Assembly (NCBI RefSeq): GCF_900104515.1
Contig: NZ_FNJL01000010.1
Location: 88,645 to 152,644, forward strand
DNA: 64,000 nucleotides
Direction: 5' to 3'
Source: Paracidovorax cattleyae
GTDB lineage: Bacteria > Pseudomonadota > Gammaproteobacteria > Burkholderiales > Burkholderiaceae_C
A program made the position numbers and the translations under genes. The notes under the pieces were generated by a model. That model saw nothing but the letters and a program-made list of their open reading frames with translations. It had not been told where the DNA came from and ran no database searches. Shown here piece after piece: positions 38,043-43,347 of this stretch (positions are counted from its first letter, which is position 1; each line of letters opens with the position of its first letter).

Positions 38043-38936
38043 TTACCAGGCCATCTCGCCCTTGAGCACCTTGGCGCCCAGTTCGAGCGATGTGCTCTCG
38101 CCGAGCTGGGGATAGGCTTCGCTCATCGCGCGCACCACGCCCGCGCTGTCCTTGGACTGCTGCAGCGCGGATTCGAACTTCACCAGGTAGCTGCGCGTGA
38201 AATCGATCGTGCCGGCATCCAGCGGCGTGCCGGGTGCCATGTGGCCGGGCACGACGGTGCGCGGCTGCAGCGCCCTCATCTCGTCGAGCTGTGCGATCCA
38301 GGCCTGTCGCTCGGCGGGCTTCTGCGTATCGGCGGTCCACACGTGCATGTTGCCGAACACGGCCACGTTGCCGAGGATGGCGTGCAGCGAAGGCACCCAT
38401 ACATACGGACGGTGTGCCAGCGGGCCGGTCGTGCCGCGAATCTCGATCGCCTCGCCGTCCACCGTGAGCCGGTCCACCGCGAGGGCCTCGGGCACGATCG
38501 GCTGCGCGGGCGCGTTGGCGCCCATCTTCGGGCCCCAGAACGCCACCTTGGCGGGTAGTTTGGCGACGATCTTCTCGCGCACCGCCGGCGTGGCGACCAC
38601 CTTCGCCTGCGGGAAGAGGGCCTTCAGCACTTCCGCGCCGAAGTAGTAATCCGGATCGGCGTTGCTCACGAGGATCGTGGTCAGCGTCCTGCCGCTGTCG
38701 AGCACGTTGGCGGCGATGCGGTATGCGTCGGCCCGCGTGAAGCCTGCGTCGATCACGACGGCTTCCTTCGGCCCCGTGACCAGGGCCGAGTTCACGTGGA
38801 AGCTCGTGGCCGGCGCGTTGACCACCTGGAGCGCCAGCGGCTGCGCGGCCGACGATGCGGAGGAGAAAACGGCCAGCGTGGCGGCGATCACGGTGGCGCG
38901 AAGGGAAGATGCAGGGGCGGGTGCGTTCGAGGTCAT
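38043..38936 (-). CDS. secreted metallo-beta-lactamase-fold protein with altered metal motif
   Basis: A 297-residue protein with a signal peptide (SLRATVIAATLAVFSSASSAAQ), so it is probably periplasmic. The MBL fold is visible in AVVIDAGFTRADAYRIAANVL and the later VVPGHMAPG. The zinc motif HxHxDH is replaced by SNADPDYYFG, which keeps one Asp but lacks the histidines. Related proteins share this pattern as I recall, so it may be a real subfamily rather than decay. Activity is uncertain. It is divergent from a LysR gene, which probably regulates it. Confidence 0.8.
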   Translation of the reverse strand: MTSNAPAPASSLRATVIAATLAVFSSASSAAQPLALQVVNAPATSFHVNSALVTGPKEAVVIDAGFTRADAYRIAANVLDSGRTLTTILVSNADPDYYFGAEVLKALFPQAKVVATPAVREKIVAKLPAKVAFWGPKMGANAPAQPIVPEALAVDRLTVDGEAIEIRGTTGPLAHRPYVWVPSLHAILGNVAVFGNMHVWTADTQKPAERQAWIAQLDEMRALQPRTVVPGHMAPGTPLDAGTIDFTRSYLVKFESALQQSKDSAGVVRAMSEAYPQLGESTSLELGAKVLKGEMAW

Positions 38937-38982
38937 GCTGTCGGTATGGAAGGAGTCGCTGAGGCTGTCCACTGTATGTTCT

Positions 38983-39039
38983 TGGATCGATCGAATAAAC
39001 GCTTCAAAATGCCCATATTTGTTGCCTGGATCGATCAAA
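38983..39039. promoter_or_regulatory. repeated operator candidate between MBL and LysR genes
   Basis: TGGATCGATCGAA (38983-38995) and TGGATCGATCAAA (39027-39039) are near-identical direct repeats 44 bp apart, close to four helical turns. Each contains the palindrome GATCGATC. They fill the divergent promoter region, which suggests LysR recognition and activation sites. Confidence 0.55.
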
Positions 39040-39042
39040 TCG

Positions 39043-39933
39043 ATGGACCGACTCACCGCCATGCAGGTGTTCGCCGACGTGGCCTCCACCGGCAGCTTCA
39101 CCGCCACCGCCAACCGGCTCGACATGTCGCGCGCCATGGTCACGCGCTACGTCGCAGCGATGGAGCGCTGGCTCGGTGCGCGCCTTCTGCAGCGCACCAC
39201 CCGCCGGGTCACGCTCACGGATGCGGGCGAGCAGTGCCTGCGCCGCAGCCTGCAGATGCTAGACATCGCCGCCGAGGTGGTGGACGAGACCGCGCCGTCC
39301 GACGGCACGCTGCGCGGCCAATTGCGCCTGGCCTGCAGCGTCTCATTTGGAGCCGCGCAACTGGCCGCGGCACTGGGTGACTTCCTGGCGATTCATCCCC
39401 ACCTCAAGGTCGACCTGGACGCGGGCGAAGGCACGGTGAACCTCGTCGCGTCGCGCATCGATCTGGCGATCCGCATCAGCAGCGATCCGGACCCGGCCCT
39501 GATCGCGCGGCCCCTCGCCGCGTGCGAATCGGTGCTGGTGGCGGCGCCCGAATACCTGCGGTGCGCCGGCCGTCCCGCGCATCCGGCCGAACTGGCGGGC
39601 CATGCCTGCCTCGGGCACGCCACCTACGGCCGCAGCCGGTGGCGCTTCTCGTCGGGCGGCGAGTCGGTGGAAGTGCCCGTGACGACACGCCTGACCGCGA
39701 ACGACGCCGTGGTGCTGCTGGCGGCTGCCGAGGCCGGCGCAGGCATCGCGCTGCAGCCCGCCTATCTCGCACGCCCGCGCATCGCCGCCGGTGCGCTGGA
39801 AGCGCTGCTGCCGCAGTGGCAGCCGCCCGTGCTCACGGTCTATGCGCTGTACCCCTCGCGCCGGCACCTGCCGGCGGCCGTGCGGGCGCTGCTGGATTTC
39901 CTGGCCGAGCGCTTCGCGGTCGCGCGCTGGTAG
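39043..39933 (+). CDS. LysR-family transcriptional regulator
   Basis: A 296-residue regulator of the CrgA/AaeR-like LysR group. The helix-turn-helix is MDRLTAMQVFADVASTGSFT with ANRLDMSRAMVTRYVAAME, and the substrate-binding domain begins GQLRLACSVSFGAAQLAAAL. It lies divergent from the MBL-fold gene; paired repeats between them suggest it controls that gene and itself. The gene is plainly intact, ending just before the convergent AhpD-like gene. Confidence 0.92.
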   Translation: MDRLTAMQVFADVASTGSFTATANRLDMSRAMVTRYVAAMERWLGARLLQRTTRRVTLTDAGEQCLRRSLQMLDIAAEVVDETAPSDGTLRGQLRLACSVSFGAAQLAAALGDFLAIHPHLKVDLDAGEGTVNLVASRIDLAIRISSDPDPALIARPLAACESVLVAAPEYLRCAGRPAHPAELAGHACLGHATYGRSRWRFSSGGESVEVPVTTRLTANDAVVLLAAAEAGAGIALQPAYLARPRIAAGALEALLPQWQPPVLTVYALYPSRRHLPAAVRALLDFLAERFAVARW

Positions 39934-39958
39934 GCGCTGCGGCCGCACCAGAAAAGGC

Positions 39959-40429
39959 TCAAGACACCGCGTGCCCTGCAGGCGGCGCGCGAAACGCGAC
40001 CATGAGACGGTTCCAGCCATTGATGGCAACGATGGCCATCGACAGCTCCACGATCTCCGCCTCGGTGAACCGGGCACGCACTTCGTCGTAGACACTGTCG
40101 GGCACCTGCGAAGAGGCCACCAGAGTGAGCGCCTCCGTCCATGCGAGGGCGGCGCACTCGCGGGCATCGAACACGCCGGACTCCCGCCAGGCGGCCAGCA
40201 GGTGCAGCCGGCGGTCGCTCTCTCCGTGCTCGCGCGCCACGCGGGCGTGCATGTCGATGCAGAAGGCGCAACCGTTGATCTGAGAGGCACGCATCTTCAC
40301 CAGTTCGTGCAACTGCACGGGCAGCGTGCCGGCGTTCACGTGCTTCTGCAGCGCGAACATCGCCTGGTAGCTGGCGGGGTGCCGGCGCGGCAGGTCGATG
40401 CGTGGGGCGTGGGCGGTGGTCGTGGTCAT
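39959..40429 (-). CDS. carboxymuconolactone decarboxylase / AhpD-like protein (ECF41 partner)
   Basis: A 156-residue AhpD-fold protein with the redox motif CAFC in ASQINGCAFCIDMHARVAR, typical of the alkylhydroperoxidase-like branch. It would act as a small thiol peroxidase or related oxidoreductase. It lies 121 nt downstream of an ECF41 sigma factor gene on the same strand. ECF41 factors are known to control carboxymuconolactone decarboxylase, oxidoreductase or epimerase genes (the COE set), so this is the expected target. No second ECF41-type promoter is seen in front of it, so co-transcription with the sigma gene is likely. Confidence 0.9.
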   Translation of the reverse strand: MTTTTAHAPRIDLPRRHPASYQAMFALQKHVNAGTLPVQLHELVKMRASQINGCAFCIDMHARVAREHGESDRRLHLLAAWRESGVFDARECAALAWTEALTLVASSQVPDSVYDEVRARFTEAEIVELSMAIVAINGWNRLMVAFRAPPAGHAVS

Positions 40430-40550
40430 GGATGGCCTTTCGTCGAGAGGAACAGTTAAAGAAAAGGGAAGCGAACGAACGGAGCAGGGCGCGGGGCAGG
40501 GGCGCGTGCGCTGCATGGCCCCCCGCCCCGGCACTCGGCCCGTGGCGCGG

Positions 40551-41471
40551 TCAGAGGCCGCGTAACTTGTCCGGATTGAGGATCGAATAGATCGCACGGA
40601 TGCGCACGCCGTCGGTCTCGAAAGCCATGACCGACCGCACGGCGCCGCCGTCTGCGTCGCGCACGATCAGGCCGGGCGCGCCGTTGACCTCGGCGGCTTC
40701 GAAGTGCTTGTCCGCGAGGTAGCGGCGCCAGATGCCCGCGGCCAGCCGGGCGAGCGCGCGCGGGCCGTGCAGCACCCGGCTGGCCGCGCGCACGCGGCCG
40801 CCGCCGTCGGAGGTCCACTGCGCTTCTTCCGAAAACAGCGATAGCAGTTCGGCATGGCTCTGCGTGCGCATGCCTTCCAGAAAGCGTGCCACCAGGGCAC
40901 GGGCCGCTTCCGGCGTGGCGGAAAAACGGGTCCTGCGGGCGCGCACCTGCGTGCGGGCGCGGTGCACCAACTGACGGCAGGCGGCTTCGGTGCGGCCCAG
41001 CACGTGCGCCACATCGCCGTAGTCGCTATCGAACACGTCATGCAGCAGGAAGGCGGCGCGCTCGTCGGGGGTCAATTGCTCCAGCACCACGAGCAGGGCG
41101 ATGGACAGGTCGCCTGCCAGTTCCGCGCGCGCATCGGCCGGTGGCGCGGCCTCTGCGCCCAGCCAGGGCTCCGGCAGCCAGGGCCCGCGGTAAGCCTCGC
41201 GTTCGGCGCGCGCCGAACGCAGCCGGTCCACGCACAGGCGCGTGGTGGTCGCGACGAGCCAGGCCTCCGCCGTCTGGACGCGGTCAGCCGGTGTCGCCTG
41301 CCAGCGCAGCCAGACGTCCTGCACGGCGTCTTCGGCGTCCGCGCGCGAGCCCAGCATCCGGTAGGCGATTGCGCCCAGCCGCGCGCGGTGGCGCTGGAAC
41401 ATGGCGGCATGGTCATCCTGGGCGGGGCCGGGGACAGGCATCGGCATCGACGGATAAAAATCGGTGTTCAT
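40551..41471 (-). CDS. ECF41-family RNA polymerase sigma factor
   Basis: A 306-residue extracytoplasmic-function sigma factor of the SigJ/ECF41 type. Region 2 is FQRHRARLGAIAYRMLGSRADAEDAVQDVWLRW and region 4 is LTPDERAAFLLHDVFD with YGDVAHVLGRTEAACRQLVHRA. A C-terminal SnoaL-like domain follows, with the DGGG motif (WTSDGGGRV) and the terminal NPDKL box that define ECF41. In this group the fused domain replaces a separate anti-sigma factor. The frame is open to 41507, but that part covers the gene's own promoter, so I place the start at ATG 41471 (MNTDFYPSMP); ATGs at 41447 and 41441 are alternatives. Confidence 0.93.
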   Translation of the reverse strand: MNTDFYPSMPMPVPGPAQDDHAAMFQRHRARLGAIAYRMLGSRADAEDAVQDVWLRWQATPADRVQTAEAWLVATTTRLCVDRLRSARAEREAYRGPWLPEPWLGAEAAPPADARAELAGDLSIALLVVLEQLTPDERAAFLLHDVFDSDYGDVAHVLGRTEAACRQLVHRARTQVRARRTRFSATPEAARALVARFLEGMRTQSHAELLSLFSEEAQWTSDGGGRVRAASRVLHGPRALARLAAGIWRRYLADKHFEAAEVNGAPGLIVRDADGGAVRSVMAFETDGVRIRAIYSILNPDKLRGL

Positions 41472-41479
41472 ACCCTCAA

Positions 41480-41506
41480 GACGGATCGCGACCCCATTTT
41501 GTGACA
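41480..41506 (-). promoter_or_regulatory. ECF41-type autoregulatory promoter
   Basis: On the minus strand TGTCACA (complement of 41500-41506) is followed after exactly 16 bp by CGTC (complement of 41480-41483). This is the consensus I recall for ECF41 promoters. It sits right in front of the ECF41 gene. The -10 element ends only 8 bp before ATG 41471, so a transcript from it would be nearly leaderless if that start is used. Confidence 0.85.
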
Positions 41507-41537
41507 CGCCGCCCTGCCGGCCCCTGTGCGCAGGCGC

Positions 41538-41574
41538 GAAAAAGCCGCCCGGCCTGTCGGCGGGGCGGCTTGGC
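41538..41574 (-). terminator. argG rho-independent terminator
   Basis: AAGCCGCC (41542-41549) pairs with GGCGGCTT (41565-41572) with further GC pairs inside. On the minus strand the stem is followed by a T-rich run (complement of 41538-41543). It lies 50 bp past the argG stop. Confidence 0.75.
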
Positions 41575-41624
41575 GCGGGCGGGCATGTGCCACCGCAGGG
41601 ATGGCGCGGTGTGGCCTTTTCCGC

Positions 41625-43347
<1,723 letters not shown>

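Follow-up and report, generated by a model that had tools for sequence, protein, structure and literature searches.

The promoter of the widespread ECF41 sigma factors, TGTCACA-N16-CGTC, lies before sigma factor genes, COE genes or both, and transcription starts downstream of it have been mapped at a G (Wecke 2012, PMC3426412). Of 53 loci with the order >ECF>COE>, 14 have the motif in front of the sigma factor gene (Table 4, PMC3426412). Self-regulation of ECF41 genes as such is therefore already known. No inducing condition was known in 2012 (PMC3426412). The C-terminal SnoaL-like domain of these proteins restrains the sigma factor through a linker (PMC8999054, PMC7730460), and the linker motif YVGPWLPEP and the motif NPDKL are regarded as ECF41 signatures (PMC7730460).

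The locus described here, part of a 64-kb window (the whole stretch of DNA that was analysed, 64,000 nt), resembles the ECF41 systems of Bacillus licheniformis and Rhodobacter sphaeroides in its promoter, its carboxymuconolactone decarboxylase (CMD) neighbour and its fused C-terminal domain. The transcripts of these two species have a leader of 22 or 23 nt and a ribosome-binding site (PMC3426412), whereas the leader predicted in the window is nil. The RpoE9 system of S. meliloti (SMb20029-rpoE9; PMC3616915, PMC6180224) has the same promoter, with the start mapped 9 nt after it, but there the leading gene is that for CMD, located 32 nt past CGTC and preceded by AAAGGAG. M. tuberculosis SigJ (PDB 5xe7) is like the sigma factor of the window by sequence over residues 23-305 of 306 (E 3.4e-46).

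Leaderless mRNAs, those with a leader shorter than 5 nt, exist in related bacteria, since they have been mapped in Cupriavidus metallidurans, where they make up 4.67% of primary starts and are enriched in transcription genes (PMC7563307). In that species the leaderless transcripts were mapped, whereas here the layout is predicted, for 53 of 74 genes of one sigma factor group. No description of a leaderless ECF41 gene was found in the literature searched, chiefly the text of openly available papers. The leaderless, self-started sigma factor gene that we predict from sequence would be a conserved and apparently undescribed variant of a known mode of self-control.

The sigma factor and its gene start

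The sigma factor gene (40551..41471, minus strand, as for all features of this gene) encodes 306 aa and passes the cut-off of NF007214 with 308 bits (cut-off 271), while its TIGR02957 score of 310.1 bits is slightly under the cut-off of 323.25. Sigma region 2 is located at 41208..41402 (PF04542, E 1.4e-14) and region 4 at 40947..41099 (PF08281, E 6.8e-15). Motif searches located a linker of the YxGxWLPEP form, YRGPWLPEP (residues 94-102; 41166..41192), together with DGGG (residues 222-225; 40797..40808) and NPDKL (residues 299-303; 40563..40577). DGGG, which the initial annotation had named as a mark of ECF41, is found in 98 of 106 family proteins and NPDKL in 85. The SnoaL_2-like domain at 40596..40892 matches PF12680 weakly (E 5e-4, 21 bits; the gathering score of 27 bits is not reached), and the C-terminal extension is nevertheless accepted because 5xe7 covers the length of the protein and NF007214 passes its cut-off. 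Together these lines support the ECF41 identity first proposed, and the locus contains sigma regions 2 and 4, the C-terminal extension, the linker, the CMD neighbour and the promoter by which ECF41 loci are recognized. The nearest named relative found is Paracidovorax oryzae (92% protein identity), in a search that may omit the species of the window itself; the window therefore probably belongs to this genus.

The mechanical open reading frame opens at GTG 41507 and overlaps the -35 box, so that it begins within the promoter. The conserved start is instead the ATG at 41471, which amounts to a correction of the gene start.

Promoter element and upstream hairpin

On the minus strand, the -35 element TGTCACA (41500..41506) and the -10 element CGTC (41480..41483) are separated by exactly 16 nt, an arrangement that occurs once in the window and was assigned by motif search and conservation. 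The 8-nt stretch TTGAGGGT (41472..41479, minus strand) leads from the -10 element to the start codon. The relatives first examined numbered 16 (L004-L010 and L060-L068, several being one species twice); in 16/16 of them [TC]GTCACA-N16-CGT[CG] is kept at the same place and an ATG follows 8 nt past the motif, the length of this stretch being identical throughout.

The motif string by itself is weak evidence, because 17 of 100 shuffled windows held at least one TGTCACA/CGTC match (gaps 14-18); it is taken as real because of its position and conservation. A chance match, with transcription of the gene coming from another source such as read-through out of argG, is very improbable: the shuffles speak for it, but against it stand the constant position in all relatives first examined and a search of 399 family genomes, in which TGTCACA-N16-CGTC-N7-9-ATG gave 74 matches in 61 genomes and its reversed control 5. 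A terminator-like hairpin between argG and the promoter also argues against reading through from argG. This hairpin (41543..41570, minus strand) resembles an intrinsic terminator, with an 8-bp stem, a 12-nt loop and a TTTT tail, and stops 36 nt before the -35 box. The region 41530-41580 has a folding energy of -31.6 kcal/mol (z -3.2). The consensus terminator scan, whose loop limit is 8, did not report it. By one and the same rule, such hairpins were found in 10/10 genus members, 14/53 loci with leaderless geometry, 0/21 leadered loci and 0/265 shuffles; they are therefore a mark of the genus rather than of the leaderless class.

The promoter that the initial annotation placed directly before the sigma factor gene was thus recovered, with a spacing of 16 nt in 74/74 motif-bearing genes of the family, and its sequence is consistent with the published ECF41 type. 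A scan of 39900-41700 for sigma-70-type promoters found none. That the sigma factor would activate its own promoter is well supported by comparison. The wider regulon for which a genome scan had been suggested did not emerge: with up to 1 mismatch, 21 copies were found against 29 in the reversed control. One further exact motif is present in the whole genome (C80), between two minus-strand open reading frames; on the strand of this motif, the frame that opens directly behind it is 13 codons long, and the site was treated as chance. The full pattern including the ATG occurs in this genome once, at the window site. The earlier interpretation is thus supported in its sigma factor class, its promoter type and its AhpD-like neighbour but not in a wider regulon. 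It had missed the leaderless geometry; its expected start range of 5-10 bp past CGTC coincides with the ATG at 41471.

Predicted leaderless geometry across the family

ECF41 genes (E up to 1e-40) were found in 95 of the 399 family genomes searched. Together with a genus search and fetched stretches, this gave 108 genes, for which a motif was called if it lay no more than 360 nt upstream and scored 10 or more out of 11 (a change of the first T to C counting half and of the first C of CGTC to T counting 0.7). The motif was present in 74 genes and missing in 34. In 53 of the 74, an in-frame ATG lies 7-9 nt past CGTC, at 8 nt (35 genes), 9 nt (17) or 7 nt (1). Since all three distances are represented, translation of the motif in a single constant frame does not account for it. 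In the remaining 21, referred to as leadered, the first in-frame ATG from 10 nt onwards is located at 11 nt (2 genes) or 19-80 nt (19 genes). The 53 genes span 26 of the 34 motif-bearing genera; that all of them start with AUG follows from their selection. Exceptions within the class are L078, which has an ATG at 2 nt ahead of the one at 8, and L087 and L107, in which a later ATG is equally likely as the start.

Several features were compared between the two layouts. The N-terminal peptides following the close ATG are alike or conserved (MDDATR.F.., MNTDF.., MNADH..), and a plasmid of Ideonella dechloratans is annotated with the sigma factor start at this ATG. In 17/53, an in-frame stop occurs no more than about 38 nt ahead of the last base of CGTC. 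No later ATG, GTG or TTG is available more than 10 codons ahead of the conserved YRMLG in 42/53; the window is among the other 11. The longest Shine-Dalgarno match does not exceed 3 nt in 52/53, and among the leadered ECF41 genes a match of at least 4 nt is found in just 8/21. The base before the ATG is C or T in 50/53 leaderless genes but also in 17/21 leadered ones, and so does not discriminate. Leaderless and leadered genes did not differ in folding over the first 40 nt of the RNA (-3.8 and -4.0 kcal/mol, P = 0.88).

The later start codons of the window bear on a more ordinary explanation, namely that this is a self-regulated ECF41 gene whose leader is short. Two more in-frame ATGs are found 32 and 38 nt past CGTC, at 41447 and 41441, either of which could be the true start; leaders of 22 and 23 nt have been mapped in two species (PMC3426412), and L060 and L062 keep the ATG at 38 nt. 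Neither codon is directly preceded by a visible Shine-Dalgarno-like stretch, however, and L061 (90% identity) and L063-L067 do not have an ATG at these positions, yet keep the one at 8 nt. Conserved residues also follow directly after ATG 41471. A short leader is thus quite unlikely at this locus.

The 74 pattern matches in the family genomes comprise 42 in-frame ECF41 starts (including L220 and L227), 22 sites before CMD genes, 2 out-of-frame sites ahead of ECF41 genes, and 8 elsewhere, 3 of which are nearly identical. In a tree built from 106 family proteins, 12 changes are needed to explain the leaderless label (35.8 on average after shuffling), and one separate group, of 23 rows, contains no leaderless gene. 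The layout may be old and repeatedly lost, or it may have been gained more than once.

Position of the predicted transcription start

The ECF41 starts published so far are those of Alphaproteobacteria and Bacillus. A mapped start in S. meliloti falls 9 nt downstream of the motif (PMC3616915), and the sequence printed in Table 1 of PMC6180224 ends at the 9th base past CGTC; the last printed base is taken as the start, which is our own reading of the table. For B. licheniformis and R. sphaeroides, the leaders of 22 and 23 nt in the text stand against 31 and 32 in Table 5 (PMC3426412), a difference of 9, again by our own reading of the table. Given the 8-nt gap in the window and published starts at 9 nt, transcription is predicted to begin at the A of the ATG (41469..41471, minus strand), which is the 9th base past CGTC, plus or minus a base. 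The sigma factor mRNA is accordingly predicted to be leaderless.

CMD genes with a motif of their own served as a ruler. Of 60 such genes, 50 have the ATG at least 15 nt away, which leaves a leader, and a Shine-Dalgarno match of at least 4 nt is found in 40 of the 50. A pyrimidine-purine step is found at base 9 in 31 and at base 10 in 15 of the 50 leadered CMD promoters (46/50 together); the counts at bases 7, 8 and 12 are 8, 2 and 8, but the step is also frequent at base 11 (25). The sigma factor ATGs, split 35:17 between 8 and 9 nt, show a ratio similar to the 31:15 of the step at bases 9 and 10.

In 30 of the 50 leadered CMD promoters, an ATG (11) or GTG (19) at 7-9 nt is not used as the CMD start, which counts against a purely translational reading of the conserved codon. 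The ATG at the start site may instead be an element of the promoter or early transcript, its use as a start codon being secondary, which we consider unlikely. CMD promoters do share TTGARGGTRTG-like starts, and GGC or GGT precedes the ATG in 14/14 genes of the window clade. Outside this clade, however, GGC or GGT is found in only 8/39 leaderless sigma factor genes, and the 42 genes with no later start to use also argue for translation from the close ATG.

An out-of-frame ATG or GTG at the predicted start was observed for many CMD transcripts, for example in L086, L106, L113, L135, L145 and L225; these codons may be a promoter feature or may open tiny leaderless upstream reading frames. Leaderless CMD genes were considered but are not proposed: 6 of the 22 pattern matches before CMD genes are in the CMD frame, but most CMD starts are 36-76 nt off and have a Shine-Dalgarno match.

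The CMD gene and the neighbourhood

The AhpD-like gene that had been placed downstream of the sigma factor gene (39959..40429, minus strand) is supported by PF02627 (E 3.6e-22), TIGR00778 and the residues EX11CX2CX3H, which we take to be the AhpD motif. It is preceded by a Shine-Dalgarno-like GAAAGG (40436..40441, minus strand). A terminator-like hairpin at its end (39960..39978, minus strand) came from the consensus scan and is weak, with 1 hit against a shuffle mean of 0.7. The sigma factor promoter likely also drives the CMD gene, because the two genes are on the same strand with a gap of 121 nt and the best motif score in the gap is low (6.7 of 11).

Within the window clade, which comprises 14 genes from 5 genera, the motif is found before the sigma factor gene only, save in L062, whose gap contains a 10-of-11 match with a changed -35 box (TGCCACA) and a 15-nt spacing; the gap scores are at most 8.5 in 13/14 members. 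The CMD gene is preceded by GAAAGG in 9 members, GAAAG in 1 and AGGAG in 4. This suggests a single promoter and a single transcript in the window, with a leaderless sigma factor gene and an enzyme gene led by a Shine-Dalgarno site.

No anti-sigma factor gene was found among the scanned neighbours (argG, the CMD gene, the MBL-fold protein, the LysR regulator and Ppnp). Two genes lie past the CMD gene, a LysR-type regulator gene in convergent orientation to it and a Vmh-like MBL-fold gene head to head with the regulator gene; this region covers 38046-39071 on the minus strand and 39019-39930 on the plus strand, the gene starts being approximate.

Proposed feedback loop

We infer from this anatomy and its conservation a positive-feedback ECF41 locus, with a self-started leaderless mRNA for the sigma factor and then the CMD enzyme, and give this reading a probability of about 0.78. 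RNA polymerase containing the sigma factor would bind TGTCACA-N16-CGTC and start RNA at the A of ATG 41471. The resulting leaderless mRNA would encode the sigma factor followed by the AhpD-like enzyme, the former translated from a 5'-terminal AUG without a Shine-Dalgarno site and the latter from a Shine-Dalgarno-like site of its own. Until a signal arrives, the sigma factor may be kept in check by its C-terminal SnoaL-like domain. A self-dependent promoter combined with such restraint would form a positive-feedback switch.

A tentative extension, somewhat unlikely in our judgement, is that translation is gated by the transcription start, so that the sigma factor is made only from transcripts begun by itself. 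Read-through transcripts would be poorly translated because the sigma factor gene has no Shine-Dalgarno site, while self-begun transcripts would carry a 5'-terminal AUG and be translated, filtering the loop against read-through noise. Such a layout might be favoured where conditions favour leaderless translation.

If the positive-feedback reading is correct, promoter, translation and feedback merge in one element, the start codon being the gene's own transcription start. Noise filtering, bistability and translation without Shine-Dalgarno recognition would then be predicted, and the element could be a compact part for synthetic switches.

The motif outside the family and before other genes

Class and phylum searches beyond the family gave 59 loci, with the motif in 15 and none in 44; a CMD gene is located upstream in 23 of these 44. 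Among the motif-bearing outside loci, family f14 has the leaderless geometry in 5/5 (2 genera) and the other 10 are leadered. On plasmids, the distance from motif to ATG is 36 and 37 nt for the sigma factor genes of Labrenzia and Nitratireductor and 19-32 nt for the CMD genes of Sphingobium, Paracoccus, Sinorhizobium and S. meliloti. A Burkholderia multivorans locus and a Paraburkholderia locus had no match of at least 10 before the sigma factor gene.

Genes of other kinds also follow the motif. Alpha/beta hydrolases were found in L230 (577-1650) and L155 (455-1609) and NmrA/epimerase-like proteins in L222 (1523-2326) and L137 (2530-3282), with an ATG 8 nt past CGTC in L230 and L222. Among the proteins scanned from such motif-associated genes, 4/9 had no Pfam match. 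On the plus strand of L131 (3368) and L148 (3342), a gene opposite ECF41 and about 0.9 kb away has TGTCACA-N16-TGTT with an ATG 8 nt later; in L131 this gene encodes a LysR regulator. In Actinobacteria and Acidobacteria, TGTCACA-N16-TGTC is often followed directly by TTAGCTGG or the close variants ATAGCTGG, TGAGCTGG and CTAGCTGG, an extension observed in L012, L014, L015, L024, L030, L031, L036, L049, L050 and L051.
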